Made by a program: the position numbers and the translations under genes. A stretch of 64,000 bases of DNA. It comes from a bacterium (GTDB lineage: Bacteria; Hinthialibacterota; Hinthialibacteria; H5-UNCL2). How positions within the stretch are numbered: position 1 is the first letter of the stretch; every line of letters starts with the position of its first letter. The stretch is taken from contig JABTUV010000001.1 in NCBI GenBank assembly GCA_015075175.1, positions 930,001 through 994,000 of the forward strand, in the 5' to 3' direction. The notes under the pieces are model-generated. The model was not told where the DNA came from. It worked only from the letters and a program-made list of their open reading frames with translations, and made no database searches. Below, piece after piece: positions 5,281 through 35,990 of the stretch.

Positions 5281-8200
5281 ATGTTTGGCAGACCCTTCGT
5301 TCGTCCGTTCGTGGCATCGTGGTTGCGCCGCCTTGGGAGGGAATTACCCCTGTTCTTGAGCGTCGTCATCTTTCTCTTGCCTGGTGTGGCCGTGTCTTCT
5401 GATTTCAGTGAAGTCACGGCCCTCCGCGACGCGCACACGCGCATCTTCGAAGTCAACCAGACGCGCACCTACCTCCACCCCGTCACGGGCCAGCCCACCA
5501 ACCTGGTCGACGACAGTCCCCGCCGAATCATCGCCAAGGGGACGGACATGAACTACCGCGACGAGGCCGGCCAATGGCAGGTAGTGGACACGACGGTTCG
5601 CCCATCCAGCGCGCCCGGCGCGCGCCTGGAAGCGACGCGACAACGGGCCAAACTCTACTTCTCGGATACCGGCAGCGACAAGATGAACGTCCGGCTCGAC
5701 CTGGGTGGCCGGGTACTGGAAACGGGGGTGCAATTGCTGGCGTACCTGGAGCCTGAAAGCGGGCGCCGCGCCATCATCGCGCGCGCGGCCGCGCGCGAGC
5801 CGTCGGCCACCGGAAACCGCGTGCTCTACTCCAACGTTTTCCCTGGCGTGGACGTGGAGTACATCAACAAGAATACCGTCCTCAAGCAGAACGTGATTCT
5901 CCGATCCGAGTGCGTATTGCCCGATCCGGCGCAATTGGGGATGGACGCGGCCTCCGCCCTGCTGGTGGTCGGGACAGAGCTCGATTACGCGCAGTTCGGC
6001 TGCAACCTGTTCGCGCAGCAGGCGGAGGGAGAGCTCGACATGAGCCGCGCCCTCGTGGCGGATGCCGCCGTGTTCTCGTTTCGCGCGCCCAACGATAAGC
6101 CAAGGGCGCGCTTCGCGCCCGGACGCGTCTGGGGCGCCGGCGGAGCAGGCGACACCGCCGTGCGCACGCGCGTCGAATGGGACGCCGGCAAGCCCTATCT
6201 GTTGGACGGCATTCCCTGCTCCAAAATGGCCGACATGCCCCGGCCCGGGGTGATCGACTATACCCTCGAACTCCACGCCTCCTCCGGCATGGACGAGGTG
6301 TGGGACCGCAACAATACCTGGTGGGTGTTGACGGAATACCAGGTCTCCGAAGGCAAGACGCTGGTGATCGAGCCGGGAACCGTGGTCAAGATCGGTACCA
6401 ATACGGGCGACGACGACGAGTGCATCCGGGTGATGGCCGGCGGCACGGTCCGGGCCGTGGGCGAGCCGCTCCTGCCCGTGTTTATCACCTCCTACCGGGA
6501 CGACGGGTACGGGGACGACCTGGACGGCAATCCCGGCCAGATGAGCGAAGCCGACCCCGCCCCGGGCGACTACCCGGCCGCCTTCAAAATCGAGCCGGTG
6601 TACGGCGGCAACGCCTCCCAGTTCAAAAACTGCCGCATCCGCTGGGCGGACACGGCCATCGTCATCAACGAGGTTTCCGTCGGTGCGATCCGGGGCAACG
6701 TTTTCAACAACTGCAACACGGCGGTGCAATTGTTGGATCCGGAGCAGGCTGACGGTTTCCCGGAGGCCGCGCTGACGAATAACCTGATCTACGAATGCGG
6801 GAACGGAATCGAGTTCGTGCCCACGGGCGACTACGCTCCGCAGTGCAGCCTGGGTCTGTATTTCAACACCTTCGAAGACCTCTCGGGCGCAGCCTTCGTT
6901 GCTACCGTGGACGAGGGATACGAGGGCTACCTGACGATTGTCGCCGAGAATAACGTAATCGCCAACGTGGCGCAGGGCTTCTCGGGTCCGGCCGGGCGCC
7001 TCGTGCTGATGTACCCCAGTCTGGATTACACGGGCTGGGCGCAGATCGGCGCCAACGACAAGTACGTGGGGGTGTTCGCGACTTCCAGCGGCTCCCACAC
7101 CCACGACCAGACCTACACCGGCGGTTCGCCGTTTGACACGGACAACCCGGCCAACGGCCGGCATTATTTGAAACAGGACACCAACATCTTCAAGGACAAG
7201 GGCAGCCCGTACTCCCTCTCCAATCACGGGCTGACGGGGACCACGACCAAGGCGCCGATCCACCTCGACTGCGGCGCCCAAGACAGCCACTTCGAGTGGG
7301 ACAAACAGTCCGTGGACGGCGACGCGCAGGACGCGGCGGACCTCGGTTATCATCATCCCCGAGTGGATTACATCATTGGCGTCAATACTACGCGCGTCAC
7401 CAACGAGGCCACCTATTATGACGAGGGCGACCCGCTGACGATCAAAAGGGGCGTCATTGTCGCCGTGTATCGTCCGGACTTCGAACAAAACCAACCCTAC
7501 TTCACCCGCCTGGCGTGCTTCGATAAACTGCAGGTCACCGACGTCCCGAACAAGTTGAGCGAGGGCCAGTTTGTTTACGACCGACAAGACGCAGTCCACG
7601 TTGACTCGTCGTATTACCTTGGAACCGGTTTCGTGCGCTATCGCTGGATCGGTAGCGGAGCGCCCGGCCCTTACACAGAAGCCGACGGCATCTGGATGCT
7701 GGGACACCACAACGAGCTCCGCGCCATGCTCCTGCGGCACTTGTTTGTCGGTATGGCGTTCATCGGCTGCGAACAACGCGAAACCGAGCACATCAAGGGG
7801 CTGATGTTCGAGCGCGGCGATCTCGGGATTTTCTGCAATGACTTGCCGTGGTTTTACGACCCGATTGACCCGCTCCCCAGTAACCTGCATACCATGTATA
7901 ACGCCTTCGTGAACCTGTCCGGAGCGGCATTGTGGATGAACACGGAGGAAATCGACCCCGGTTACTTCGTGACTTTCCACAATGAGACGGTCATCAACTG
8001 CTTGTGCGGTTATTTCATCGACGGCAATGAAGATTCGACCGTATGGCCTGGTCTGGGTACTTCCGACGTGAATATCGTGGTAAGCTGTCCGCTCGGCGGC
8101 ATTGTCGGGGCGGAAACGGAGGCGCCCGAGACGCAGCTCTTCTGGGTGGGCAAGAACGGCGTCGACTTCCAGACGCCGGAAAACCACGACTTTTATTGGA

Positions 8201-9123
8201 ACAACGGCACGGCGTCCAAAGTCGATCAGGACACCACCAATGTCACCTATATCGAGGGCGATTCCGGTTCCGTGAAGCACCGGCATGCGCTGCTGGTCAG
8301 CAAATCGGGGGCCGAACTGCCGGAGAAGGACCTGGAGAGCCTCTACCTCGCGCAGAACCTTGGAGAGGGCGAGGCTTCGCGCCTTCCGTTCCGGCTCAAG
8401 GGGGTTTACGACGACACCGACGTCATCACGGTGCCCGAGCACGGCAACAACAACTGGCCGACCGGCGATTTCCAGGTGCGCGTGTACAGCCTGGAGAAGT
8501 CCGCGGATTGGACCGCCAGTCCGGACTATCTGGCCTACGCGGTGATCTCCAACGGGGAGGCGACCGTGTACGGCCACAGTGGCACCATCACCGACGGCGA
8601 CCTGCTCGTCAAGGTCACGCGCTCTGGCGGCACGAAGGATGGGGATTGCACGGGAGGCTGCTGGTTCGACCTGAAGCTGCGCAATGAGACGGCGTTCAGC
8701 ATCTGTCTCAACGCGCAAGCCGTCGACGACATCGACGAAGATTCCTCGCTGTGTTTCTGGGTTTCAGAGGACGGCAGCACGTGGTACGCGGGCGAGACGA
8801 CGCCCACCACGCAAGCGTCCGACATGGTGACCTGCAACGCCCGCTTCGCCATGTGGTATCGGACGTCCATCGAGCCGGCTCCGCCGATTCTCGCCATGAG
8901 CGCCTTCGACGCCATCGGCGCGAATGCCGCAGTTGACGCATATCCCACCAAGTATGTTTACAATCCGCCCAATCCCAACCTCGGCGGTTGGAGCAACGGC
9001 ACGACGAGCCTGCATCTGGACGTTGATAACAACACTGATGATGACTATCTGCCCTATATTGTGCACCTGCTCGATGCCGGCTGGCACTATTACGGCTGGA
9101 ACTTCTTCGAGGTGCAGGAATGA
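5281..9123 (+). CDS. Large secreted protein with beta-helix-like middle, unknown function
   Basis: ATG 5281 has GGAGGCAGG upstream. Residues 22-38 form the hydrophobic core of a signal peptide (LPLFLSVVIFLLPGVAVSS). Residues about 40-250 are a globular N-terminal domain with a TYLHPVTGQP start that I do not recognise; a region around 340-620 contains right-handed beta-helix-type coils (NCRIRWADTAIVINEVSVG, GNVFNNCNTAVQL, TNNLIYECGNGIEF). A second helix-like stretch comes at about 840-960. No catalytic residues can be assigned. The stop overlaps the next gene's start (ATGA), so the two secreted proteins are translated together. It may be a surface adhesin or a polysaccharide-binding scaffold. 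The opposite strand has a long open frame here, which is a codon-bias shadow. Confidence 0.85.
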   Translation: MFGRPFVRPFVASWLRRLGRELPLFLSVVIFLLPGVAVSSDFSEVTALRDAHTRIFEVNQTRTYLHPVTGQPTNLVDDSPRRIIAKGTDMNYRDEAGQWQVVDTTVRPSSAPGARLEATRQRAKLYFSDTGSDKMNVRLDLGGRVLETGVQLLAYLEPESGRRAIIARAAAREPSATGNRVLYSNVFPGVDVEYINKNTVLKQNVILRSECVLPDPAQLGMDAASALLVVGTELDYAQFGCNLFAQQAEGELDMSRALVADAAVFSFRAPNDKPRARFAPGRVWGAGGAGDTAVRTRVEWDAGKPYLLDGIPCSKMADMPRPGVIDYTLELHASSGMDEVWDRNNTWWVLTEYQVSEGKTLVIEPGTVVKIGTNTGDDDECIRVMAGGTVRAVGEPLLPVFITSYRDDGYGDDLDGNPGQMSEADPAPGDYPAAFKIEPVYGGNASQFKNCRIRWADTAIVINEVSVGAIRGNVFNNCNTAVQLLDPEQADGFPEAALTNNLIYECGNGIEFVPTGDYAPQCSLGLYFNTFEDLSGAAFVATVDEGYEGYLTIVAENNVIANVAQGFSGPAGRLVLMYPSLDYTGWAQIGANDKYVGVFATSSGSHTHDQTYTGGSPFDTDNPANGRHYLKQDTNIFKDKGSPYSLSNHGLTGTTTKAPIHLDCGAQDSHFEWDKQSVDGDAQDAADLGYHHPRVDYIIGVNTTRVTNEATYYDEGDPLTIKRGVIVAVYRPDFEQNQPYFTRLACFDKLQVTDVPNKLSEGQFVYDRQDAVHVDSSYYLGTGFVRYRWIGSGAPGPYTEADGIWMLGHHNELRAMLLRHLFVGMAFIGCEQRETEHIKGLMFERGDLGIFCNDLPWFYDPIDPLPSNLHTMYNAFVNLSGAALWMNTEEIDPGYFVTFHNETVINCLCGYFIDGNEDSTVWPGLGTSDVNIVVSCPLGGIVGAETEAPETQLFWVGKNGVDFQTPENHDFYWNNGTASKVDQDTTNVTYIEGDSGSVKHRHALLVSKSGAELPEKDLESLYLAQNLGEGEASRLPFRLKGVYDDTDVITVPEHGNNNWPTGDFQVRVYSLEKSADWTASPDYLAYAVISNGEATVYGHSGTITDGDLLVKVTRSGGTKDGDCTGGCWFDLKLRNETAFSICLNAQAVDDIDEDSSLCFWVSEDGSTWYAGETTPTTQASDMVTCNARFAMWYRTSIEPAPPILAMSAFDAIGANAAVDAYPTKYVYNPPNPNLGGWSNGTTSLHLDVDNNTDDDYLPYIVHLLDAGWHYYGWNFFEVQE

Positions 9124-10490
9124 TGCGGGCGGTGGGATGTCCGCGAAGTGGGGGGCGCGCGCTGCGCGCCCCCCTGTCCTTCGCTTTCTGTTTCTTGTTG
9201 GCAATTCAGGCCTCGGGTGTGCCGGAAACACCCACGGCGACGCCCACCCCGACGGGTACATTGACGCCCATCCCTACCAATACTTACACGCCCACCAAGA
9301 CGCCGACGCACACCAAGACGCCCACGCCGCCCACGCCCACGCGGACTCCCACACCCACGCCGCGGCAGTGGACTTTCCGCGTTCCACAGGACTTCGCAAC
9401 CATTCAAGCGGCTATTGACGCGGCAACCCACTATGACAAGATCGTAGTCAGCCCCGGTCTCTACAAAGAGAACATTCGATATGAAGGGAAGCGCCTGTGG
9501 ATTGAATCTGAAAATCCTCGCGATTGGAACATTGTGAAATCAACCGTGATTGATGGGGACTTACGGGGCAGCGTCGTCACTTTGGATGGCACCGAAGCGG
9601 GCGATGCGCCGGATGGGAATACCGCTACCAGGTTGTGGGGATTCGACATCCGCAACGGTTCTGCGGAGAACGGGGGTGGGATAAACGGGAACGGCGCCGA
9701 GGCCTGGATCGGCTGGTGTATTATCCATGATAACTACGCCGCAATACGCGGTGGAGGCGTGGCGAATGTAAGCAACGTTCATGTTTGCCACATTTATGCA
9801 AATAGCGCGGCGGAGTACGGTGGTGGCGTGTATGCTTGCCACCGGCGCCTGTCGGTATGTCTCATTGTCGCCAATTCAGCCAATGTGGGTGGAGGTTGTT
9901 ATTCAATGGCGGCGATCGGGCGAACCACGGTAACCCGCAATATGGCCAATTCCCGCGCGGGAGGTGTCTTCAACTGCAACCAGCTCGACGGGAGCATTCT
10001 ATGGAACAATTTCGCGCCCGGACCGGGGCGCGACCTCTACACGTTCGGTACCACCGCGTTCGCCAACTGTGTGGGCGACTTGCAGGGTGGCTTCCTCTTT
10101 TTTTACTATCCGTGGTGGGGCGGGGATCCGTACTTCAGGGATCCCGACAATGGCGACTTCCACCTCCGCCCGGACTCGCCGCTCATTGACTGGAATCCAG
10201 CGATCTGGGGAGCGATTGTGGACCTCGACAACAATCCCGTACCGGTATACCGGCCTGAGTTGGGATATATCTTCCCACCTGGCATACAAGACCTCGGTTG
10301 CTATGAATACCAACCTCCCGGCGACGTGCGGCTCGACTACACGGTCAACCACCTGGACCTGTTCGACTTGGCGCTGCATTGGGGCGAAGAGCGCGCGGAG
10401 ATGGAGGGCGCATTGCGCGCCGACGTGGACAAGAGCGGCACGGTCGACGCCGCCGACCTGCTCATTCTCATCGAGGCGCTGTCGAAATGA
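9120..10490 (+). CDS. Secreted right-handed beta-helix protein with Thr-Pro linker and dockerin-like end
   Basis: The start ATG 9120 (or 9123) overlaps the previous stop. The 456-residue product has a signal peptide to about residue 33, a linker of TPT/TPTKTPTHTKT repeats (about 36-80), then a pectate-lyase-like beta-helix opened by FRVPQDFATIQAAIDAATH and KIVVSPGLYKENI, with Gly-rich coils (NGGGINGNG, RGGGVANVSNV, EYGGGVYACH). The C-terminal 50 residues include NHLDLFDLALHW and DVDKSGTVDAADLLILIEAL, a calcium-binding dockerin-type repeat pair. Proteins of this layout bind or cleave polysaccharides at the cell surface. A related, much larger protein lies at 54475-59028. Confidence 0.85.
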   Translation: MMRAVGCPRSGGRALRAPLSFAFCFLLAIQASGVPETPTATPTPTGTLTPIPTNTYTPTKTPTHTKTPTPPTPTRTPTPTPRQWTFRVPQDFATIQAAIDAATHYDKIVVSPGLYKENIRYEGKRLWIESENPRDWNIVKSTVIDGDLRGSVVTLDGTEAGDAPDGNTATRLWGFDIRNGSAENGGGINGNGAEAWIGWCIIHDNYAAIRGGGVANVSNVHVCHIYANSAAEYGGGVYACHRRLSVCLIVANSANVGGGCYSMAAIGRTTVTRNMANSRAGGVFNCNQLDGSILWNNFAPGPGRDLYTFGTTAFANCVGDLQGGFLFFYYPWWGGDPYFRDPDNGDFHLRPDSPLIDWNPAIWGAIVDLDNNPVPVYRPELGYIFPPGIQDLGCYEYQPPGDVRLDYTVNHLDLFDLALHWGEERAEMEGALRADVDKSGTVDAADLLILIEALSK

Positions 10491-10506
10491 ACACAACCGT
10501 GGGCGC

Positions 10507-10530
10507 CACCCTTTTGTACTCAAAAGGGTG
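10507..10530 (+). terminator. Perfect 10-bp hairpin after the secreted-protein pair
   Basis: CACCCTTTTG (10507-10516) pairs with CAAAAGGGTG (10521-10530) around TACT, 17 bases after the stop codon. No clear T run follows. It could terminate the 5281-10490 transcript. Confidence 0.5.
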
Positions 10531-10544
10531 CACGCGCCGCTAGC

Positions 10545-10656
10545 GAGCAGGCTGAAGCCTGCACTCCGCCTCGTCTCCCGGCGATGGTGGGTAAAACCCA
10601 CCCTACGGGGGCCGTTATACCGGCGGAGAGCAGGCTGAAGCCTGTACTCCGCGCAG
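10545..10656. repeat. Dispersed palindromic repeats (CAGGCTGAAGCCTG)
   Basis: The 286-base gap before the glycosidase carries two copies of GAGCAGGCTGAAGCCTG followed by [C/T]ACTCCGC, at about 10545 and 10628, separated by a short GTGGGT/ACCCAC palindrome. These are REP-like intergenic elements. Nothing coding is seen. Confidence 0.5.
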
Positions 10657-10776
10657 CGCGCCGTCAGGGACGCCTCGATCCTTCGACCAGCTCAGAACTC
10701 AGGGGAGCTGCGGGCGGTACAAACGCATGCCGTCAAACCCGTTATCCTGACTAAACCATCCCGCGTATCCCGTCCC

Positions 10777-15061: not shown

Positions 15062-16980
15062 TCAGCCGCAGGGGCACATCCATGATAGGTACCTGTCAAG
15101 GGGAGAAAAGAGTCTCCCACGAGCTTTCGGCACTTGTCCGAATGCCTGTTTCTGATACGCTTTGCGTGCCGGTCCGGAGGATAGAGCACTGCTGGAGAGC
15201 AACTCGAGCGCCGCGGCCGGTGGATATACGGCGGGAGAGCTCGACCTGGTGTCGGGCTCTTTTGCTGATGGGCTCCCGTCGGCATCCCCGAAAGCGCAAA
15301 ACTCATGTTCGTTTGCTCCGTTGGTCTTACCTTCAATCCGCAGCGAGACCCGCACGATGCTTCCGTAGTCGGACAGGTTGCGGATGATGGGATGTTCCTC
15401 CATGAAGGGCGGCGATTCCTGCTTGGTGGGCCGCTTCATCAGGTACCGCAGGTCCCGCAGACGGAAGGCCCCGTGGGTGAGCGCCAGTTGGCAGGCCTGG
15501 TCGAGGGCCCGGGCCTTGTGCTTGCCGACCATGGCCAGCAGTCCCTGTAGGACCCGGATGCCTTGGATGCCACGCTCTTGGAGCATCGCCTCCGCCCAGC
15601 GGCCGGTACCCGGGCCGACCACTCGCGCCCGCCGCAATAGCGTCTCCGCTCCGCGCTCCACGGCGGAGATCTTCTCCGAAGCGATATGAGCCGGATGGGT
15701 GCTGAAGTGGCCCTTCTGTGCTTTGAGATGGACGGCGATCTGCTCCATGCGCCGGTTGAAGATGTGCACCATGCGGATGTCCCAACGCACCCAGACCTCC
15801 CGGCCCAAGCACTCGGGAGGCACGGAGTAGTAGGCCTTCTCCAGTTCCACGTGGGCATCGCGGTGGACGCAGCGCTGAGCCTCGTGGAAGAAGGGAAAGG
15901 GATCGGCGGGAAGCGGGAGCAAGACAGCCTGCTCGTGCTCTTCGAAGAGATGCTTCACCTGGCGGCGGGTCGTGCCATGAATGCGATGGTCGGCGACCTG
16001 CGTTTCCCAGTTGAGCAGATGGAGATTTTTTTCTTCCAGGCTGTGGAAGACATGTCCTTTGAGTCCGTTGTCGCGGACATATCCTACACCGCGCTCCACC
16101 TTACCCTTGTGGCGAGGCATATACGGTCGGGTGGGGAGCACGACGGTCCCATAGTGCCGGCAGAAGGCCTCCAGTTTTGGGTTCAGCTCGGGATCGAACC
16201 AGTCGGCTTTGCTGACTGCGGCGCGAAGGTTGTCGATGACCAGGGTCCTGACCACACCGCCAAAGTGACGGAAGGCATTTTCCAGGCCACGGATGAAGCC
16301 CTCCGTGGTCTGATGCCACATGGCTTCGCTGTAGCCTTTGCGGGAGTGGCTCAGGATTACTCGCAGCACGTGGGGATAGCGCCGGCGCCCCTGGGCGTCC
16401 AGCACGGGCGCTCCGCGGCCGAAATCCACCTGGGCTTCGTGGCCGGGCTCACACTCAGAAAGACCCAGCGTCCCGCGCGTCCAGATTACAGCGAGCCGAA
16501 ATCCACCTGGGCTTCGTGGCCGGGCTCACACTCCATGCGCCGGAAGGGCAGCGTGGAGTCCTTGCCCAGACGCCGCACGAAGCGCTTGACCGAGCAGTAG
16601 CTGGCGGTCAGACCCTGCTCGACGACCAGGTCCTGGTAGATCCGCTGGGCTGAAAGGCCCAAATCCAGCTTCTTCTGGATGACCTCGCGGAACGGCTCAC
16701 AGCGGCTTTGGGCGGCCGGATTCCCGGGGGGCACCTTGGCCGGTTTTGAACCTACCGCCGCCTCTGTCCCGGCGGTCACCTTGGCCGGTTTTGGTCCCTC
16801 CGTCGCGTCGGCCCCGAGGGTCACTTTGGCCGGTTTTGCCTCGTCACCAGCGAGTCTGACATACCGGGCGACCGTCTCCCGGTGCACATCCAGCTCTTGG
16901 GCGATCCGCCGATGCGACCACCCCCGCTGCGCCAGCGCCAAGATCGCCTGTTTCATTGCCATTTTGAGTTGGTTGGCCAT
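15062..16980 (-). pseudogene. istA: istA transposase, frameshifted
   Basis: From ATG 16980 the first 164 residues carry an N-terminal helix-turn-helix (RGWSHRRIAQELDVHRETVARY) and the start of the DDE domain, GHEAQVDFG, then stop at 16486. A second frame from 16429 continues with VDFG-type sequence, YSEAMWHQTTEGF, VIDNLRAAV, and the acidic-site region KGKVERGVGYVRD, to about HPIIRNLSDYG. The break is caused by a 77-base offset: a 39-base stretch encoding ECEPGHEAQVDFG occurs twice, at 16418-16456 and 16495-16533, with 38 unrelated bases between. Removing 77 bases restores one frame. The last 90 residues of the open frame, after about 15330, do not look like transposase. Confidence 0.8.
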
Positions 16981-17075: not shown

Positions 17076-18540
17076 ACGCTGACATTCACGTGACCAAGCC
17101 CCTCCGATTCTTGCTGCAACCTGATCCGCGCAGTTCGACAGAGGTCATCTCATCCGTTCTCCCACTCATGGCGGCGGTCCCGCAGGGACACTTGCCTTTC
17201 GGCCAGGTCCATCTCTCGACGGACAGGGACCATCGTGTCAGTGAGAAGTCAGGGACCCAGAAGACTAGACCTGAACGCGCCCAATGAGCAACAGCTTTTG
17301 CGTTCTGACAGTAGCAACAAATGCGGCACGTGCTGCCCCCAAGGGACCCGTACCCCATCGAACCTACTCTCGCTCCCGGCTTAGCCCAGCGTTTCCAGTG
17401 CTGGAAACTCGCGCGGTCTGATCTCCGTCAGCTGCTGCAGGTACTCGACCACCCTCATAGAGCCCGGCCACGGATCGGTGCCAGTGCGAGTATGCCTGTT
17501 GCGAAACTGTTGGATATCCCTTGAACTGCCCATCTGCGCGTACTTTCTGCCCAACGGCGAGGAGACCTGCGCAGGCACTTCGTAGGTCGCCTGCAGAGCA
17601 GGGTTGCAGCGGTTCGTTCGGTTGAACTGGTAGCATCCGCGCAGTGAGTGGAATCTGGCAGTGGGAACCTTCCTGGTGGGCAACCAAAGATCTTCTCGAA
17701 CTGGCCCGGGGTCGAGTAATGGCATATACGCGGGCGCAGGTGTCCTCGTAGCGTCCTGGCGCGGCCCGCCGCGTGGCGTTGCTGAGCATGTTGCCCACCA
17801 GCCATCGTTTTGGCGCAATGTAGGTCGCTGCGGCAACCCAGGAAGGCGTCGATTTCCCTCGATAGTCACGCACCGCCGCAAGAAAATCTGGCGACAGTTT
17901 CAGGTCGCCGGTGGTAAATCGTCCCAAGGAGTTGATGTTGAGAGATCGTTTTTGCGTTGTGGCGGAGGGTGTCCCAACTGTCAGCTCCCGCCACCCGCCC
18001 GTCTCGTGGTGTTTTCGAGAGGCCGACGCGTGCGCCGCCATCGCCGCGGTAAGGCTGCCGGCCGCGTGGTGTTGAACTGCCAGATGTAGGTGCTCCCGGT
18101 CATCCCAGCAGCGGTTGTTGCTGGAGCGGCAATGTTTTGGATGTTTGGCGTTGCTGATGGTGGAGATGGCTCTGCGGTTGCCGACTGTTGTGGCGAAAGG
18201 CTGCCGACATGCACGTTGTGTGTGCAGGTGAAAGTGTACTGGATGGAGTTGATCGGCGGCGGTGGTCTGCATGGCGATGAAAGCATGCTTGAAGCGGGAT
18301 GGTGTTGGCGATGTTGCTGTTTCACGGTTTGGTGTGTTGCACTGCGCGACGATGGCGTGATTATGGAGGTTGGCTGCTGAGGAAGCCAGATGCGGCTGAC
18401 GGTGGGGTTTCGGAAGCGCGGTGATGAGCGGTTGGGGTGGTACTGGCGAGGCAGTAAAATGCGTTGTTGGTGCGGGAGGAGTTAGCGCTGCGGTATTTCG
18501 TGATGGTGGTGGTGATTGCATGGAGTGCGGTGGCGTTAAT
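17076..18540. other. No convincing gene; possible decayed CDS on the minus strand
   Basis: Minus-strand translation between about 17950 and 17380 has a protein-like patch (LSPDFLAAVRDYRGKSTP, YIAPKRWLVGNMLSNATRR) that continues only by changing frame, ending in WPGSMRVVEYLQQL. I do not recognise the family. From about 17950 rightwards the plus strand turns G/T-rich and merges with the eroded CRISPR repeats. The stretch resembles either old pseudogene DNA or poorly corrected sequence. Confidence 0.35.
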
Positions 18541-20043
18541 GTTTTGGCTTTTGCTTTCGTGTTTTTTCTTGAGGATTTTCGCATTTTCGCAACTGATGCG
18601 GGTGTTTTAATTTTGCCGGTGTTTTTTGAAGCGCCGGGGTTTAGTGGTGTTTTGTTCTTCATTTTCTGGTGGTTTTTTCTCCCATATCGACGGTTAAGCT
18701 TTCCAGCTGAGTAAAGTCCTTTGCTTTTGGCGGTGTTTTTTCCCGTGGTTTCCGGTGTGTGGCTGGGTACTGTTTTGCTTTTTCTGGTGTCTTTCTAGAC
18801 GCTGTGGTGGAAATCTTTGATGGCTTGTCGTTACTTTTGCCGGGGTGTTTTTCTACCACAGTGGTGATTTTTAAGTTTCGGTGTTTGCCTTTTCCGGTGT
18901 TTTTTTCCGGTCGAAATTAACACGGAGGTGAAGCGAAGATGAAGTTCCATTTTGCCGGGGTGTCCTTTCTTTCCGCCATAGAGGGTGCGGCGTGGTGTTT
19001 ATTATGTTTTGGCTTTTGCGGTGTTTTTTCGCTGGTATACCGTGGATGAGATGTGCGTTGGGTGTTTTGGTTTTTGCCGGTGTTTTTTCTGGTGTGGTGG
19101 TAGGGATGGTGTAGGGGTAGGAAGCCATTTTGCGGTGTTTTTTGCACCGCTAGGGGTAAGCGAAGTGTTTTGGTTTTGCTGTGTTTTTTTCCGCATGGTA
19201 TCAGCGGTATTTTTCGGTGTCCTTCTTTTCCGGGGTGTTTTTGTGTGCGACGTGGATGACGGAGGAAGCAATGTTTCCTCATTTTCGGGGTGTTTTTTTC
19301 TCGATTTTTAGCGCAGAGGGTGTGGGCTGATGGTCCTTTCATTTTGCCGGTGTTTTCTTGAGCGATGTTACGGTTCGCTGGGGCAATGGTAAAGTTTTCA
19401 TTTTGCTTTTTTCTGTGTTTTTTCTTGTGGATAGGGGTTGATTTGGGTTGTAGTCCTTCTCATTTTGCGTGTTTTTTGTTGTAAGAATTTTTATTTGGTG
19501 TGTTTTCCCTTTTTCTGGTGTTTTCTCATTTTATTTCCTACGTGAGAATCATTACCGTATCGCTGGCGCGTTAATCTTTTGGGTGTTCTTTTCTCTCATG
19601 TTGTTACGGAACATATTTGGCCTCGCGGCGTTCTACCTTTTGCTTGGGTGTTTTTCCTGAGTATACTGGTGAGGATATGCCGCTAAGGCAGCGCCCTAAT
19701 CCTATTTTTCTGTGTTTTTTCAGCCACGCACACATTCTGGCTTGAGAGTACTTCAGTATGTTTTAATTCCCTATTTTCTGGTGTCTTTTCTGTAATTGTC
19801 TGGTATAGGAGGAATAAGCGGTTTTTGGCTTTCTAATCCTCATTTTCCGGGTGTCCTTTTCTCCATTGTGTTTATCCAGGCGGCGAACTCGTGAGATTTC
19901 TAACTTCTCCATTTTCCGGGGTGTCCTTTCTCCTGAGCTAGACACGGATAGGGATATGGCGGAGCGGTTCTTCCTAATCCTCTACTTTCCGTGTCCTTTT
20001 CTTTGTCGAAGCGCGCTCACCGTTGGGCGATAGCGCATATATC
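18541..20043 (-). CRISPR. Eroded distal end of the CRISPR array
   Basis: Short echoes of the repeat, chiefly TTTTSCSGTGTTTTTTC on the plus strand, recur every 50-65 bases from about 18555 to 19500. Copies become readable again at about 19833, 19899 and 19975, with deletions and C-to-T changes. The spacing is shorter than the 72-77 bases of the intact part, so both repeats and spacers have lost bases. It is the leader-distal end by the orientation argued for the main array. Individual repeat borders cannot be given. Confidence 0.6.
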
Positions 20044-22838
20044 GTCCTAATCCCTCATTTTCCGGGGTGTCCTTTCTCCCTTCCCTTGCAGGAAGTCGGT
20101 CAGTCCGAGGAGGTCCCCAGTCCTAATCCCCTCATTTTCCGGGGTGTCCTTCTCCGGCTGGAGTAGGTGATCACTGCCGAGAATATCGTCCTAATCCTCT
20201 TACTTCTGGGTGTCCTTTCTCCGCCAGCCGCCACGCGGTATGGAGTATACCGCGGAAGACAGTCCTAATCCCCTCATTTTCCGGGGTGTCCTTTCTCCTA
20301 TCACGGGCAATGCGACCGTGGACGATGTGAGAGTCCTAATCCCCTCATTTTCCGGGGTGTCCTTTTCCTTAATCGTTCGTGAGATCAACCCGCATATTCG
20401 GGCGTGGCGTCCTAATCCCCTCATTTTCCGGGGTGTCCTTTCTCCTAGATACGGATCGGAGTATGGCGGAACGCTTTCGGTCCTAATCCCCTCATTTTCC
20501 GGGGTGTCCTTTCTCCCCGGCAGGCGGCGAACCTGCCGGATAGTGTGCCCGTTATCACGGGGGTCCTAATCCCCTCATTTTCCGGGGTGTCCTTTCTCCC
20601 GTTCCTGTCATTGATTATCGCGGCAAACGCTGGCGTCCTAATCCCCTCATTTTCCGGGGTGTCCTTTCTCCCCACGGCGGGCGCGCAGACCACTACTCAG
20701 TGCGTGTGGAGTCCTAATCCCCTCATTTTCCGGGGTGTCCTTTCTCCCTGGATTGGTACGAACAGCTTACCAACAGCCTCATCAGTAGTCCCAATCCCCC
20801 ATTTTCCGGGGTGTCCTTTCTCCCCCCTATGGGGACGCGCCTGAAGTATTGATCGCGCGCCCTGTCCTAATCCCCTCATTTTCCGGGGTGTCCTTTCTCC
20901 GCCGCTGTGCGGCAGAGGGGTTGGCGGAGTAGTCAATGGAGGTCCTAATCCCCTCATTTTCCGGGGTGTCCTTTCTCCCTCACTGATGCGAAGCTTAACG
21001 AGGTACCTACAACGTGTCCTAATCCCCTCATTTTCCGGGGTGTCCTTTCTCCACGACGTTCGCAATCGCGTCGTCTACGGCAACGTGCCACTGTCCTAAT
21101 CCCCTCATTTTCCGGGGTGTCCTTTCTCCTATGCGGCTTGGATTGATAAGGCCGTCATCATCATCGTCCTAATCCCCTCATTTTCCGGGGTGTCCTTTCT
21201 CCCGCGGTATTCTATAGCCAAACGAAAACTGGAGGAGGTAGGTCCTAATCCCCTCATTTTCCGGGGTGTCCTTTCTCCATAGCGCGCAATCTTACGATCA
21301 GGTCGGCGGAACGGTATAGTCCTAATCCCCTCATTTTCCGGGGTGTCCTTTCTCCGCAATCCTGCATAAAGATGGGAATGGACTTCTGCTCCGAGTCCTA
21401 ATCCCCTCATTTTCCGGGGTGTCCTTTCTCCATAAGCAGCTGAAGCAGTCTCCACCTCGTGCTGGAGTCCTAATCCCCTCATTTTCCGGGGTGTCCTTTC
21501 TCCAGTCCGAGAAAGCGGTGGAAAGGTGAGAAGGGGTTTCTAAGTCCTAATCCCCTCATTTTCCGGGGTGTCCTTTCTCCAGAAGGGCGATTTATGTTTG
21601 GAGAATGGCGCGCTTCCGTCCTAATCCCCTCATTTTCCGGGGTGTCCTTTCTCCACCCCAAGCGCAAGCGGGAAGACGCTGGTGGTGGCTTCGAGTCCTA
21701 ATCCCCTCATTTTCCGGGGTGTCCTTTCTCCCTGCCTCACGGGCAACGAAAGCGACGGGCTTGTTCTGGTCCTAATCCCCTCATTTTCCGGGGTGTCCTT
21801 TCTCCGACGGTGTGCAGGTCCTGAAGCGGGACGCAGTCGAGGACGTCCTAATCCCCTCATTTTCCGGGGTGTCCTTTCTCCGTACTGCCAAGGGCTAATT
21901 GCGACCGTCAACGAAAAATGGTCCTAATCCCCTCATTTTCCGGGGTGTCCTTTCTCCCGACCTCGTCGGCAGATCTTGGCAACGCGACCGTGACCGTCGT
22001 CCTAATCCCCTCATTTTCCGGGGTGTCCTTTCTCCTTCAAGACCTACATGCACCCCCAGCCGGCATGCGAGATGTCCTAATCCCCTCATTTTCCGGGGTG
22101 TCCTTTCTCCTTTAGCCTATCTCGTACTGGCTCTTGGTGCGCGTAATCTAGTCCTAATCCCCTCATTTTCCGGGGTGTCCTTTCTCCTCTCGTACTGGCT
22201 CTTGGTGCGCGTAAAAGGGGGCGCGGTCCTAATCCCCTCATTTTCCGGGGTGTCCTTTCTCCAAAACGTGATGACGGTGTGCAGGTTCTGAAGCAGGGCG
22301 TCCTAATCCCCTCATTTTCCGGGGTGTCCTTTCTCCTGACGTGGTAGCGTCCGGGGTGTTGAAGAGAGAGTCCTAATCCCCTCATTTTCCGGGGTGTCCT
22401 TTCTCCGCAGTCGATGACCTGAGCGCTCGCTGCGAAAGGGCTGTCCTAATCCCTCATTTTCCGAGTGTCCTTTCTCCCGAAATCGCTTGCATATCGCGTA
22501 CCGGCTCTTGGGTCCTAATCCCCTCATTTTCCGGGGTGTCCTTTCTCCCCGAAATCGCTTACAGCATATCGCGTACCGGCTCTTGGGTCCTAATCCCCTC
22601 ATTTTCCGGGGTGTCCTTTCTCCACTCTGAGTGGTGCTCTTCAGCACCCTGACGTGATGTCCTAATCCCCTCATTTTCCGGGGTGTCCTTTCTCCGAAAG
22701 CCCAGGGCTTTGAACCGTGACCGTCGGGGCGTCCTAATCCCCCATTTTCCGGGTGTCCTTCTCCACCTGGACTCAGCCGAACCAAGGGCGATCGCCCCCG
22801 CAGGTCCTAATCCTCATTTTCCGGGGTGTCCTTTCTCC
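20044..22838 (-). CRISPR. CRISPR array, about 38 repeats, type III-A
   Basis: A 37-base repeat, clean copy at 20262-20298, starting GTCCTAATCCCC and ending CCTTTCTCC on the plus strand, is repeated at intervals of about 69-83 bases. Starts include 20044, 20120, 20188, 20262, 20333, 20409, 20480 and so on to 22587, 22659, 22731 and 22804. Most copies are identical; those at 20044, 20120, 20188, 20788, 22443, 22731 and 22804 have one to four indels or substitutions, mostly in C or T runs. Spacers are 34-45 bases. Read on the minus strand the repeat forms a CCCC/GGGG hairpin and ends in ATTAGGAC, the position of the 8-base 5' handle of type III crRNAs, so transcription should run right to left from the cas side. 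Confidence 0.98.
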
Positions 22839-23426: not shown

Positions 23427-24428
23427 TCAGACGACCGTCCGGTAGGGGACGTAAGCATGGCCGCGCAGGAGCGCGCGCGCCAGCGCTTCGGCCTGATGCC
23501 GGAGCAGTTGGCGGTAGCTGCACTTCCTGCCCATCCCGGCGTGCAGGACCTCGCGCTGCATGCGGCGCTCGTACTCAGTGAAGTAGGTCTTGCGTCCCCG
23601 GTCGGAGAGGCGAAAACCGCCGCCCTCCGTCTCGTGTTCGAAGTCGTCTTTCTCCAGCATCCGCAGGTTGACCAGGCGAAGCACGAAGGGATCGCAGAGC
23701 GCGGGGCGGAACTCCTCCAGGAGATCGAGCGCCAGCGAGGCGCGGCCGTAGGAAGGGGAGTGGAGGAAGCCCATCTGCGGGTCGAAGCCGAGCGAGGCGA
23801 CGGTGGCCTCGAGCTCGTTGCCCACCAGCGTATAGGTGAGCGAGAGCAGCGCGTTGATCTCGTTCTTGGGAGGGCGGATGCTGCGACGCTCAAAGCGCAG
23901 GTCGCAGCGGAGCATGCGGTCCCACTCGGCGAAGTAGAGGCGCGCGCCCACGCCCTCCAATCCCAGCAGGCGACCGATATCCGTCGCGCCCGAGGCCAGT
24001 TTCTCCACCTTTTCCAGCTTGCGGATCGCGGCTTCCAGGCCGGGGCTGCGATGGTTGTAGTAGTACTTTCGGAGCAGGTTGCGCGCGTTGCCGAGCTTGG
24101 CGCATACAAAAGTGCGCGCCAAGATCAGGCTGGAGGCGTCGTGCAGCGCCGTCTCGTACTGACGGAGGCGCAGATAGATATTTTTGGAAAACCGCGACAC
24201 GAGGCGACCGTGCAGGTCTCCCCGTCGGCTCAGAAAAGCGAAGTCCGCTCCCTGCCGGAGCAGGCGCGTGAACACGGCATGACTTGCCTGCACCGGCCCC
24301 ATGCAGACCACTGAGTCCACCCGCCGCAACGGCAGGTCGAGCAGGCAGTCGCTTTCATGCTCGACGCGGATGCGATCTCCCCGGATACGAAGGTGCGATC
24401 CGGCGCGCGAAACGTAGATCGAGGCCAT
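23427..24428 (-). CDS. cas1: CRISPR-associated integrase Cas1
   Basis: The 333-residue protein begins with the N-terminal beta domain (MASIYVSRAGSHLRIRGDRI) and has the metal-binding residues of Cas1: Glu158 in LLGLEGVGA, His223 in FLHSPSYGRASLALDLLEEF and the acidic cluster Asp235-Glu239. The KNEINALLSLTYTLV segment is typical of the family. With Cas2 it inserts new spacers at the leader. The gene starts 185 bases downstream of cas6, and this gap contains the diverged repeat copies described separately. No reverse transcriptase is fused or adjacent, so acquisition is expected to be from DNA. Confidence 0.97.
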   Translation of the reverse strand: MASIYVSRAGSHLRIRGDRIRVEHESDCLLDLPLRRVDSVVCMGPVQASHAVFTRLLRQGADFAFLSRRGDLHGRLVSRFSKNIYLRLRQYETALHDASSLILARTFVCAKLGNARNLLRKYYYNHRSPGLEAAIRKLEKVEKLASGATDIGRLLGLEGVGARLYFAEWDRMLRCDLRFERRSIRPPKNEINALLSLTYTLVGNELEATVASLGFDPQMGFLHSPSYGRASLALDLLEEFRPALCDPFVLRLVNLRMLEKDDFEHETEGGGFRLSDRGRKTYFTEYERRMQREVLHAGMGRKCSYRQLLRHQAEALARALLRGHAYVPYRTVV

Positions 24429-24442
24429 CCCTACTCTCCTGG

Positions 24443-24637
24443 TTCCCTAAGTCCCCTCCTACTCGGGAGGCGTCACTGTTGTATGTACCTGGGTTACCAT
24501 CATCCCCGCGTTCCCACCTCAGGCTAATCCCCACATCTTCGGGGCCGTCCTTGCCTCGGATCGTCGAAAATGGGACCGACATCAACTAACGGTCCTGGTT
24601 GGTCCAATCCGCTCATTCGCGGTGGCATCCTGCGATC
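24443..24637 (-). repeat. Cluster of diverged CRISPR-repeat-like units upstream of cas1
   Basis: Three units resembling the array repeat start at 24443, 24522 and 24602, about 79-80 bases apart. The middle one keeps CTAATCCCC, CAT, CGGGG and GTCCTT; the third keeps GTCC, AATCC, CTCATT and TCCT and overlaps the last codons of cas6; the first is the weakest. Their stems are CCTCC/GGAGG, CCCC/GGGG and CCGC/GCGG, while the array repeat has CCCC/GGGG, so the third shows a paired C:G to G:C swap. The segments between them (24481-24521 and about 24557-24601) would be spacer-like. Confidence 0.65.
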
Positions 24638-25662
24638 GGTGGAGATACGTTGAACATTGCGGACTCCGCTGGAATGCCGCAATCCCCTCCTTGCGGATGC
24701 CTCACCAGGTTCACGCGCCCCAGTCCCATGATGGCACCCTTGCCTACGTGCAGCTCCTCGGCGGCGCGCAGCAGGGCCGCCATCCCCGCATCCACCCCGT
24801 CCAGCCGCACATCGCCGACCAGGCCGCCCATGCCGATGCTCTGGCGCTGGCGGTTGGACCAGCGCTCCCAGGCATACCAGCGCACGTCCTCTTCCTGAGC
24901 CGCGCAGCCCGCCACTCCGGCAAAGAGCGGACGCAGGTCCAGTTCTTCCCAGGGCACCCCGGCGTGGTAGTGGAGGATCGCGCCGGCCCGTCGGGCCGCG
25001 GTCCGCAGGAACGCAGAGAGTTCGAAGCGGGTGAGCGGTTCGCCTTGCCGGTAGAGCCTCAGTGGCGTCCGCAGCCGCAGGAGCATCGGCCCTGCGGGTA
25101 GCGAGTCCAAAGGCAAGGGCGCGACCGCCGGAGCGCAGTCCCCCAGCGCGACTCTGTCTCGGTAGACCACCGTGCCGTCGGGAGCGGTCGCGTCCAACAT
25201 GCGGAAGGGGATGCGGTCCGCTCCCAGACCGCGGCGGGCAGCGCGATCCAGGGCGGTGCAAACAAAGGGCCAGAAACGGGCCGCCTGCCCGAAAAAGAGC
25301 AGCTCGCAGCGCAGCTCCTCGCCTGCCGCCAGGCTCCGAACGCCCCGGTCGGGGGGACGCACCACGAGCGGATGGGGGATGTCCTTTTGGGCACGAAGCT
25401 CCTGCTCATCCGCGGCGAAGGGGGTCTCAATCAGGCGTGTATAGATGCAGTCGCGCCGCAAGAGGCAGCTCCTGCACGGGGACTTCACCACGCACACCAT
25501 GCGCTTGAGTCCCATAGCCAGGGCGCCGCGTAACATGGACCCCAGGTAGCCAGGCAGGCGGGCGTCCGCTTCCGGAGCGAGCCGAGTGATCAACCTCAGC
25601 ATCGTAAGGCGGGCGAGGGAGGCGCGCGCCTGCTCGACGGTCCCGATGTTGGTCGTCGTCAT
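24613..25662 (-). CDS. cas6: CRISPR pre-crRNA endoribonuclease Cas6
   Basis: The 349-residue RAMP protein starts at ATG 25662, overlapping the csm4 stop as ATGA; an upstream in-frame ATG at 25689 is less likely. It has LPGYLGSMLRGALAMGLKR with a Cys cluster (CRSCLLRRDC) and IPHPLVVRPPDRG, which are typical of the Cas6 group found with type III systems, and the C-terminal Gly-rich loop HVGKGAIMGLGRVNL. Cas6 would cut the array transcript below the CCCC/GGGG hairpin, leaving the ATTAGGAC handle. His residues suited to catalysis are present (HYHAG) but I cannot assign the active site. It stands where csm5 would be expected. Confidence 0.9.
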   Translation of the reverse strand: MTTTNIGTVEQARASLARLTMLRLITRLAPEADARLPGYLGSMLRGALAMGLKRMVCVVKSPCRSCLLRRDCIYTRLIETPFAADEQELRAQKDIPHPLVVRPPDRGVRSLAAGEELRCELLFFGQAARFWPFVCTALDRAARRGLGADRIPFRMLDATAPDGTVVYRDRVALGDCAPAVAPLPLDSLPAGPMLLRLRTPLRLYRQGEPLTRFELSAFLRTAARRAGAILHYHAGVPWEELDLRPLFAGVAGCAAQEEDVRWYAWERWSNRQRQSIGMGGLVGDVRLDGVDAGMAALLRAAEELHVGKGAIMGLGRVNLVRHPQGGDCGIPAESAMFNVSPPIAGCHRE

Positions 25663-26588
25663 GTCCGGCCCGCCTCGTCCTCGTGCCATCGCATGGGCAG
25701 CGCCAACGCGTAGCCGGAGTGCACGGCCGCCGGGAAGCCCGGCGCCAGGCCTTCCAGCAGGCGGCCCAAGGCACAGACTCCTGGCTGATCCACTCGAAAG
25801 ACGCTTCCGGGCGTCAGTCGCAAGAGCGGTCGCTTGAAGGGATTCTCGAACACGCCCCGGCCCAGGCGGCCGTACTTGACATCGGTCTGCCAGAGGCCGT
25901 CGGTCGGGTCGGTCCGGGCGGGGACAAGGTGGGAGAGGGTCACGAGGGCGTTTGGGTTTTCTACTTCGCTTAACTCCCTCTCGGTTGTGAGTTCGCCGAC
26001 CTCAAAGTGGCCCATGCCGCTGTTGGCCTTGCGGCCATAGCCCGTATGCGAAAGCTCCACCAGCAACCGATGGGCGACCCTGGCGTCCGCTTCGGTCTTA
26101 GCCGCCAGGAAGATCGTCACGCGCCCGTCGGTGTCTTCCGGGTAGTGCCCGACGGTCTCGTGGAGCGAGCCTGGATCGCCGGTGTGGCCGGTTGTCCGGC
26201 TGATGCGCGCGTGCAGGACCGAGACCTCGGCGAAGCCCCTTTCCGCGACCAGTTGCCCGGGCAAGCCTCCCGCCTGGATGGCACGGAAGGAGGAGCGATC
26301 CACGTAGCGGCGCTGTTTGAGTTCCTTGAGCCGGCGGTAGAGCACCACGTCGAGCGGTCGCACGAGCGAAAGGCGAACGTTCAGTGGCAGCGGCAGCGAG
26401 TCGCCGGGAAGCCCATCGGAGAAGGCGAACGGCGGCGCGCCGGCGCGGAACGGTTCCAGGAACCGGCCCAGTTCCGCCTCGCCCTGCGACTCCAGGAGCG
26501 TCCAGCAGAGGCTGCCGAAGAGCGTGTCGGCCTGAAGCGGCGTCCCCACCGGCGACCGCAGCCGCAGGCCGATGCGAAAGAGCTGCAT
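25659..26588 (-). CDS. csm4: Type III-A effector subunit Csm4
   Basis: The 309-residue RAMP protein starts MQLFRIGLRLRSPVGTPLQADTLFGSLCW, the standard opening of Csm4, and has the second-RAMP signature YGRKANSGMGHFEV. Csm4 caps the 5' handle of the crRNA and joins Cas10 to the Csm3 filament. It starts 11 bases after the csm3 stop and overlaps cas6, so the operon is tightly coupled. Length is normal for the family. Confidence 0.94.
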   Translation of the reverse strand: MQLFRIGLRLRSPVGTPLQADTLFGSLCWTLLESQGEAELGRFLEPFRAGAPPFAFSDGLPGDSLPLPLNVRLSLVRPLDVVLYRRLKELKQRRYVDRSSFRAIQAGGLPGQLVAERGFAEVSVLHARISRTTGHTGDPGSLHETVGHYPEDTDGRVTIFLAAKTEADARVAHRLLVELSHTGYGRKANSGMGHFEVGELTTERELSEVENPNALVTLSHLVPARTDPTDGLWQTDVKYGRLGRGVFENPFKRPLLRLTPGSVFRVDQPGVCALGRLLEGLAPGFPAAVHSGYALALPMRWHEDEAGRT

Positions 26589-32475: not shown

Positions 32476-35400
32476 ATGGTCGAATCCAAAGACGATTTCC
32501 CTATCGGCCAGCGAGTCACCTTGCCGGGGCACTTCCCTGAGCCGGTCGTACTCGAATCGGTGCGCCCTATAGGTGCGACTTTCGAGTGTCGGGTACGGCT
32601 CCAGGATGGGACCCCCGAGGAGACCATCCTGTCGAAGGCCGAGGCGGAGGTCCTGATCGGCAGCTCCGAACACGCTGCTGCGCGTGTCGTCCCCGCCGAT
32701 GGCGAGCGTGTGCGGCTCCTCGTCGAGTCCGCGCGGATTCGCCTGGCCTACTCCCACGACAAGCATTTCGCGGTCAGCCTCTCCGGGATACGGACTCTGC
32801 CCCACCAGATCGAGGCCGTCTACCTTCGGATGCTCCCCCAGCCACGGCTCCGCTTCCTCCTGGCCGACGATCCGGGCGCTGGCAAGACCATCATGGCGGG
32901 TTTGCTCATCAAGGAGATGAAACTGCGTGAGGCCATCGAGCGAGTCCTGATTCTCTGCCCGGCTCCGCTCACGCCTCAGTGGCAGGACGAGATGCTACGG
33001 TGGTTTGGAGAGTCTTTCGACATCATCTTCGCCGCCGTGGACCAGCCTAACTCACCAATCCGTGCAGCAGCGAGCCGCCCAGGTAATCGCCTCGATTGAT
33101 TACGCCAAGCAGGACGACGTGCGGGAGCGTGTCTGGCAACAGCGGTGGGACCTCGTCATCATCGACGAGGCGCACAAGTGCAGCGCCTACACCAAGCGCT
33201 CCACGAAACGCGGAGACGAGGTTTCCAAGACGAAACGCTACCAGCTTGCCGAGCACCTGGCGTTGTGCGCCGACCACCTCTTGCTCTTGACCGCCACGCC
33301 ACACCACGGCGACGACGACCGCTTCGCCCATTTCGTGCGGCTGATAGACCCGGACCTTTTCCCGGAACCCCATCGCCTGGGCGAGCGTGCCACCGAGCTG
33401 CGCCGGGAAATCCTGCGCCTCGGACCGGAATGCCCGTGGGCGTTGCGGCGACTCAAGGAGGATTTAAAAGACGTATACGGCCGGAGGCTCTTCCCCGACC
33501 GCCACGCCCACACCGTCACCTTCCGCCTGAACTCCGAGGAGTACGACCTTTACAAAGCCGTCTCCGCGTTCATCAACCAGTTTCTGCCCCAGGCGACCGG
33601 ACGGAAGCAGAACAGCGTCGCCCTGGCGCGGACCGTCTTTCAACGTCGCCTCGCCAGCTCCACGATGGCTATCTACGAGTCCGTCCGCCGCAGGCTGGAG
33701 CGCCAGCAGGAGCTTCTCCGCGAGTTGGAGAGTCTCACCCCAAGCCAGTTCGCCAAGCGGGTGGCCCAGCTTCAAGGCCGCCTTGTGGACGTGGAGCAGG
33801 ACGAGGACGACCTGGACGACGAGGCGCGGGATCGCCTTATCGACGAGTTCACCGCCGCCCTGCAACTGGACCAGCTCCGGGCCGAGGTCGCCGCGCTACA
33901 GGACCTCGTCGCCCAAGCCCGTCGTGTGCGCGACCACGCTTCGGACTCCAAGCTGGCCGCGCTGCGGGAATGCCTGGAGCGGGCAGAGTTTCGGGAGCTG
34001 CAGGACGGCCGCGGCAAGCTCCTCATCTTCACCGAGCACTACGACACAGTGAAGTACCTCTGCGAGCAACTGGAGCGTTGGGGCTACACGACCTGCCGCA
34101 TTCATGGCAGCATGAACCCCCGCGAGCGCCAGCGCGCCCAAGAGGAGTTTCGCACCACCAAGCAGGTTTGCGTGGCGACCGAGGCGGCTGGCGAGGCATC
34201 AACCTCCACTCTGCCGCCTGATGATAAACTACGACCTCCCATGGAACCCGACGCGCCTGGAGCAACGCCTTGGCCGCATCCACCGCATCGGCCAGGAGCA
34301 CGAGGTCCACGCCTTCAACTTCGTCTCGTCCGAGTCCGAAGAGGGTCAGCCGATCATCGAGGGACGCATCCTGGAGCGGCTTTTGGAAAAGCTGGAGCAA
34401 ATGCGCGAAGTGCTTGCCGACCGCGTTTTCGACGTGATCGGCGAGGTGCTTGCCCTCAACGACGTGAACCTGCCGGAGATGCTGCGTGAGGCGGCGCACA
34501 ACACCGGCCGTGAGCAGGAGTACCTTGAGCGCATCGAGTCCATGGACCCGGCCAAGCTTCAGGAGTACGAGCGCGCGACCGGCATCGCTCTTGCCCGCGG
34601 CAACGTGGACTTTTCCGCCTTTGAGTCCAGCAACGCGGAGGCCGAAGAGCGTCGCCTCATGCCGCGCTACGTGGAAGACTTCTTCGTAACCGCGTGCCGC
34701 GAGATAGGCTTGCGCGTGGAGGCCCGTGCCGACGGTCTCTGGCGCATCGAGCACGTGCTGGCCGATCTTCGCTCCGACCGGCTGGCCGCGGTGCGACGTG
34801 TCGGCAAGCCTGAGGGTGAATACCGCAAGATCACCTTCAACAAGGCGGACCTGGAAAAAACCCAACACGGCGACGCCGTGCTTCTCGGGCCGGGCCACCC
34901 CCTCTATGCCGCCGTGGATGAGCGCCTCAATGAGCTCCTCTCCGGGCTGCTCGGCGGTGTCGCCGTTTACGTGGACGCGGCCAGCGAGGCGCCCTACCGC
35001 CTGCACTTCTTCGAGCTTTCCGTCAAGGGTTCCAACAGCAAGGGCGAACCACTCAACCTCCACGGCGAAGTGGTCGCCGTGCGGGAGGAGCTGGGAAGCG
35101 ACGGCGACGGCCGCTTCGCGGTAGTACCGGCGGACTGCCTGCTCGATCTTCCCGCGCACCCGGTGCCACCCCCGGAAATTGACCCGGTGGACTCTGCACC
35201 CCCGGCAGATTTCCTGAAGAGCACCTACCAGATGGAGTTGCGCGAGCGCTGCCAGGAGGAGCGCCGCCGCCACGTGGACACCTGCCGCGACTACCTGGAG
35301 AAGTCCTTCACGGCGCGTATCCGCAAGGCCGAGGACCGCGTGATGCAGCTCCAGACTCGCGTGCGCAAGGAACCGGACGTAGGCATTGCACTCAAGAGCG

Positions 35401-35990
35401 CCCAGAATGATTTGGAGGACCTGAAGCGTATCCGCAGGGAACGCATGGCGGGCCTCGACCGCCTGCTACTCGTCCGGCACGGCCCGGTCCGGCACATCGC
35501 CACGGCGCTGGTACTACCGTCTGATTCCGACGCCGACGGGCAACTGGCGAAACTGTTGGAGGACATCGACCCCGTCTTGCGCCGCAGGTGTGAGAAGGCC
35601 GCCGAAGACCTGGTGGTCGCCTACGAGGAGGCGCGAGGCTGGACGTGCGAGCGCGTCGGGCACCTGAAGATCGGTCCTGATGTGCGCAGCATGGCCGTGC
35701 GACGCGCAGACCGGCTACCGCGATCCCATCAAGGACTTGCGACGGATCGAGGTCAAGGCCGCCGACGCGGACAACCATCCGCCTTACGGTGAACGAATGG
35801 AACAAGGCGACGCAGATGGGGATTCCTACTGGCTCTACGTGGTCTGGGGACCCGCTGGACAAGCCAGACCCTGAGCCGTTGCGCATCCAGAATCCGGTCA
35901 CACCTCGACCACGCCAGCGGGAAGTCGTCGCGGCGAGGTATTTTGACATTCCGGCGGACGCCGTCGAGAACGCCCCTGAAGAAAGGTGTC
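32476..35990 (+). pseudogene. SNF2-family helicase with DUF3883-like end (DrmD-like), frameshifted
   Basis: Read through several frames the product is about 1,100 residues. Motifs in order: LLADDPGAGKTIMAGLLIKEM (ATP site, 32860s), DEAHKCSAYT (33170s), LLTATPHHGDDDRF (33290s), KLLIFTEHYDTVKYL (34015s) and LEQRLGRIHRIGQ (34250s), a complete SNF2 set. The C-terminus has RRIEVKA and, in another frame, NEWNKATQMG and SYWLYVVW, a DUF3883-type domain. Frame changes lie near 33050, 34185-34225, 35690 and 35760-35840. Helicases of this kind (COG0553, close to DISARM DrmD) pair with DNA methylases in defence islands. Each break fits loss or gain of one or two bases, so sequencing error is as possible as decay. 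Confidence 0.75.

Follow-up and report, generated by a model that had tools for sequence, protein, structure and literature searches.

CreTA and CreR combine degenerated CRISPR repeats, located off the array but near cas genes, with partial complementarity to endogenous sequence (PMC9458426, PMC12737573). These elements belong to type I systems, with CreR also reported for type V-A (review PMC12737573), and have a cas or toxin promoter as their site of action. In the scaRNA of Francisella novicida (PMC9458426, PMC6990116), too, a degenerated repeat is joined to a guide, which is complementary to surface (lipoprotein) genes of the host; it operates in type II, with Cas9, and its match lies in a 5' untranslated region. 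Mutated repeats next to self-matching spacers were recorded in the survey of Stern et al. 2010, as it is cited in PMC6990116. Finally, Staphylococcus aureus survivors of type III-A self-targeting lose the target, the spacer or the cas function (PMC5687920).

We analyzed a stretch of 64,000 nucleotides of a bacterial genome, hereafter called the window, that carries a type III-A operon with repeat-like sequence between cas6 and cas1.

The type III-A locus and its diverged repeat units

The operon lies on the minus strand in the order cas10/csm1, csm2, csm3, csm4, cas6, cas1 and cas2. Downstream of cas2 come a leader region and then the main array, which points away from cas2 and whose units are mostly spaced by 68-83 nt. 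Among the operon proteins searched, none was recognised as csm5, and no such gene lies between csm4 and cas6. Cas10 retains its HD and GGDD motifs, and both the main array and the effector look intact. The features needed here are the following.

24613..25689, minus strand: cas6 (PF10040)
24674..24712, minus strand: u4, probable fourth unit and the weakest, in the 3' end of cas6 (shuffle p 0.026)
24601..24637, minus strand: u3, degenerate repeat (local score 28, shuffle p 0.0002)
24522..24559, minus strand: u2, degenerate repeat, the best preserved (local score 38, reached by 0 of 5000 shuffles; p < 0.0002)
24443..24480, minus strand: u1, degenerate repeat (local score 26, shuffle p 0.008)
23427..24428, minus strand: cas1 (PF01867, TIGR00287)
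19831..22838, minus strand: main CRISPR array, repeat on the crRNA strand GGAGAAAGGACACCCCGGAAAATGAGGGGATTAGGAC

The gap between the end of cas6 (24613) and the start of cas1 (24428) measures 184 nt. In it lie three copies of the array repeat that have diverged, all on the minus (crRNA) strand and oriented like the main array. The first-pass annotation had proposed exactly such units, with spacer-length segments, within the cas operon, and our scores bear this out: the three best in the gap (38, 28 and 26) exceed the maxima of 300 dinucleotide shuffles (30.5, 24 and 18.5) and also beat 300 random windows. Unit u1 adjoins the ribosome-binding site of cas1, and u3 overlaps the final codons of cas6, whose stop codon it contains. 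The fourth unit is in phase with the others and its AATGAGGGGATT core matches at 11 of 12 positions. As read from the sequence, the CCCC anchors stand 76, 80 and 75 nt apart, which resembles the spacing of the main array, and the units have diverged from the array repeat by roughly 22-35%. Three clear cognate repeats and a weak fourth at array spacing are what an array remnant should display. Since u4 directly follows the conserved end of cas6, there is insufficient space for a leader beside the first repeat, which argues for a remnant and not a live array. An Rfam search returned no relevant family. An alternative ancestral repeat shared by all four units was also considered, and was not significant (P 0.08-0.16).

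The first-pass annotation had further described a compensated stem and proposed that selection keeps it. The double change itself is real: u2 retains the original CCCC/GGGG stem and u3, a single unit, shows the matched double change to CCGC/GCGG. Units u1 and u4 pair in a shifted register only (CCTCC/GGAGG in u1). The proposed selection does not follow, however, because the folding energies of the units are ordinary compared with dinucleotide shuffles (p 0.11-0.51) and, when neutral decay is simulated to 20-30% divergence, all four pairs survive in two or more of the four units in 12-34% of runs. The stems are thus within neutral expectation, and neutral decay accounts for them. More suggestive than the stem is a difference between the repeat halves, with 84% identity in the half comprising the crRNA handle and the 3' arm of the stem versus 62% in the other. 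Neutral simulations reach this split in 0.1-0.2% of cases (P 0.001-0.002), for a division that was chosen post hoc, after seeing the data. The better-kept half is the same as among active repeats of related systems.

Several irregularities surround the main array. At its far end (window 17600-20200) we found about 20 further units, progressively more degenerate, in which the changes among aligned units are one-sided on the plus strand (38 C>T and 10 G>T, with numerous C and G deletions) and the period falls from 76 to about 55. A GC/AT skew of up to +0.45/-0.58 extends past the array end. This trailer is either a poorly resolved long-read stretch or a case of strand-specific decay. At the leader end (22443-22838), several repeats lack single homopolymer bases, with CCC for CCCC; these gaps resemble errors of the consensus more than a biological feature. 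A DDE transposase/integrase of the Mu-C type (PF22483, PF00665) lies at 15062-16429, a few kb off the array end. Elsewhere in the window, an SNF2-type helicase (33005-35792) is split into two overlapping frames with Helicase_C cut between them, suggesting a frameshift, in the sequence or in the gene.

Self-matching segments and their surface-protein targets

Between the units lie three spacer-like segments, two of which match a family of genes that is also represented in the window.

24481..24521, minus strand: segment 1, core 24489-24511 antisense to surface-protein family codons for DLGYHHPRVDY
24560..24600, minus strand: segment 2, with 24556-24595 antisense to the QIVEKGTDINYR codons of the same family
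24638..24673, minus strand: segment 3, translated within the Cas6 tail
5281..9123, plus strand: window copy of the beta-helix surface-protein family (PF13229 just under the cut-off)

The family comprises seven copies encoding long right-handed beta-helix proteins that are probably secreted. The 13 other genomes of the class lack it. A second gene follows several of the copies (window 5281-10670 and loci L071-L076) and, in the window, has a dockerin domain. Five copies have conserved 5' and 3' ends and a diverged middle. Two are frame-broken and the assembly has a rated completeness of 84%, so that the sequence may contain local errors.

When the gap was used as query against its own genome, segment 2 matched four other sites (on contigs C2 and C48, and twice on C45) at 89-94% over 33-40 nt, with genome-wide E values of 4e-6 to 4e-7. 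The matches of segment 1 are shorter: three sites (C49, C48 and the window copy) at about 90% over 23-25 nt, with E 0.1-0.2. Against the family alone, the observed score was reached by none of 2000 shuffles for segment 2 and by one of 2000 for segment 1. Segment 3 had no self-match and scored under most shuffles. Segments 1 and 2 have the defining property of self-targeting spacers: both match their own genome outside the array, segment 1 more weakly, and neither is 100% identical to its targets. A type III guide has to be antisense to its target mRNA, and in all good matches of the two segments the crRNA strand is complementary to the family mRNA. The target site of segment 2 is near the N-terminus and that of segment 1 some 1.8 kb downstream. 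The family copies differ in sequence, and the spacers fit its invariant motifs best.

Of 40 main-array spacers, none matches its own genome comparably, so that self-matching concerns two of the three segments in the gap versus none of 40 (exact probability about 0.003). We also asked whether the two segments were pieces of one inserted pseudogene. This origin was rejected because the corresponding family sites are about 1.8 kb apart and their order is reversed in the gap.

The segments had been put forward in the first-pass annotation as candidate guides. Their endogenous matches support the general idea, but the target is the seven-copy family, antisense at two sites, and not a promoter; we detected no complementarity above chance to the cas10, cas1 or array promoters. 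A tiny toxin gene is likewise unsupported: every open reading frame listed overlaps cas6 or cas1 or lies antisense to one of them, leaving no convincing small ORF in the gap for a CreTA-type toxin gene beside the guide, though an RNA toxin may be hidden there.

The cas6-cas1 junction in related genomes

Two others among the 14 genomes of the class share the operon cas10, csm2, csm3, csm4, cas6 and cas1. In G005 (MAG Bin_79R; Cas1 53% identical), there is an 8-base overlap of cas6 with cas1, without repeat units between them, and the array comes after cas2. In G011 (MAG SURF_12, QZKN01000065; loci L030 and L038), on the other hand, a full array of more than 25 regular repeats, with a repeat that ends in GATGAGGGGATTGAGAC, occupies the space between these two genes and is oriented as in the window. 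The repeats of all three genomes have in common a GATGAGGGGATT-type 3' half. Neither the G005 nor the G011 array contains a spacer that matches its own genome in a way comparable to segments 1 and 2; for G011, such matches are at chance level. The trailer of the G011 array (L030 7700-8130) displays an inverted-repeat sequence, CCCCTCTTCCGTCCCCCCAAGCTTGGGGGGAAACAGGGGGG, several times in or beside its last degenerate units.

Wider comparisons were also made. A first scan of genome contigs with Cas1 as the sole query gave no match. Among 30 cas6 loci with short flanks, including those of the window, G005 and G011, few have an adjacent cas1, and in two of them cas6 is followed by an array. A cas6-cas1 gap of similar size in G333 (L090) contains no repeat-like units by eye.

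Relatives lacking the units had been named in the first-pass annotation as evidence against its reading. This objection carries only halfway: G005 lacks them, and G011 has a complete array at the site. Together, the two cases speak more for the relic of an array inside the operon than for a conserved regulator, and the gap of the window would be the ruins either of a G011-type array at this site or of an independent one.

The end of Cas6 fits with this comparison. In the alignment, about 30 residues at the C-terminus of the window protein are missing from the Cas6 of both relatives, and this extra tail is encoded by u4, segment 3 and u3 (24613-24706). Decayed repeats of the protein's own CRISPR system thus code for its tail. 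Because u4 starts directly past the last Cas6 residues common to the relatives, nearly all the space up to the start of cas1 consists of array remains.

Decayed array or regulator

We propose that the gap is, on balance, a decayed intra-operon type III-A mini-array with self-matching spacers, and that it probably represents an autoimmune memory that has been inactivated. Together with the end of cas6, the gap would be what is left of a small array of four units and three spacer-like segments, running in the direction of the cas operon and placed where G011 retains its full array. Two spacers would have been taken from the multi-copy surface-protein genes of the organism, or at least match them, antisense to their mRNA. 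Harm is to be expected when type III interference is directed at a self transcript that is expressed, and self-targeting through the Csm complex would presumably have been costly. The mini-array is no longer maintained, as reflected by the lack of room for a leader, repeats that drifted by roughly 22-35% and cas6 translation that enters the array. We infer that leader loss and repeat decay ended the self-targeting.

Observations that support a decayed mini-array are the repeat homology and array-like period, the full array at the G011 site, the antisense self-matches to one family with none comparable in the main, G011 and G005 arrays, the start of u4 directly after the shared Cas6 residues, and stems within neutral expectation. 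The S. aureus survivors (PMC5687920) and, as far as its citation in PMC6990116 goes, the mutated-repeat survey argue for the inactivated autoimmune memory. Three points speak against a decayed relic: simple decay does not predict the 84% versus 62% split, segment 2 is only about 10% off its targets, which is below the repeat drift, and both spacers that survive are oriented as a functional guide would be. If the gap is only a relic, it provides a clear case of a type III self-matching array that loses its repeats while the main array stays intact, as well as an example of cas6 gaining a tail from decayed repeats.

A less likely hypothesis, which we would regard as rather doubtful, is that the gap encodes a domesticated III-A crRNA-like regulator. 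It would be co-transcribed with the operon, Cas6 would cut the diverged units, and Csm loaded with guides 1 and 2 would bind and destroy the family mRNAs. Two guides with partial complementarity, both antisense to one endogenous family, would suit such a role, as would the better-kept stem and handle half (a post hoc observation), the retained HD and GGDD motifs of Cas10, and the fact that CreTA, CreR and scaRNA are all characterized by ectopic repeats that have degenerated (PMC9458426, PMC12737573). However, the unit stems are no more stable than shuffles, the match of segment 1 spans 23-25 nt only, and the element is known from one genome and is missing in G005. The target family, for its part, was found in no other genome of the class. 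Moreover, target recognition by type III normally triggers Cas10, so that activation would be expected upon recognition of an expressed self transcript; mismatches could perhaps damp this response. If the element is functional, regulation by ectopic repeats, described for types I, II and V, would reach type III as well, and a type III system would silence an endogenous gene family, raising the question of how the Cas10 response is held back.

We find it improbable that the array decayed after ordinary immunity, with spacers acquired from a mobile element or virus carrying a relative of the surface-protein gene and self-matching as a side effect. Spacers that fit invariant motifs best, among copies that differ, would be expected if the source was a homologue. 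Yet no relative of the family was found in viral contigs or plasmids, the gap has no convincing match in phages, and the organism's own copies are the closest matches. Very improbable, finally, is that repeat hairpins were kept as Cas6 processing sites separating the effector mRNA from the cas1-cas2 mRNA, with irrelevant spacers: the location between effector and adaptation genes and the better-conserved handle half would agree with it, but the stems are no more stable than shuffles, G005 has no such site and the two self-matches are left unexplained.

Returning to the decayed mini-array, its closest counterpart is the III-A array of G011, which has the same position and orientation and a related repeat; the latter is full and regular with chance-level self-matches, whereas the window remnant is decayed and self-matching. 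As in the cases of Stern et al. 2010, as related in PMC6990116, host-matching spacers are accompanied by diverged adjacent repeats. The remnant differs from what is related there by two spacers directed to one multi-copy family, partial identity, a III-A operon and a main array that stays intact. With CreTA and CreR it shares degenerated repeats off the array near cas genes and partial endogenous complementarity. It does not qualify as a CreR since no cas promoter is matched above chance and the effector is III-A instead of type I or V-A; its matches are within surface-protein coding sequence. With the scaRNA of F. novicida it has in common a degenerated repeat combined with partial complementarity to endogenous surface genes, here in a III-A system and at internal coding sites.
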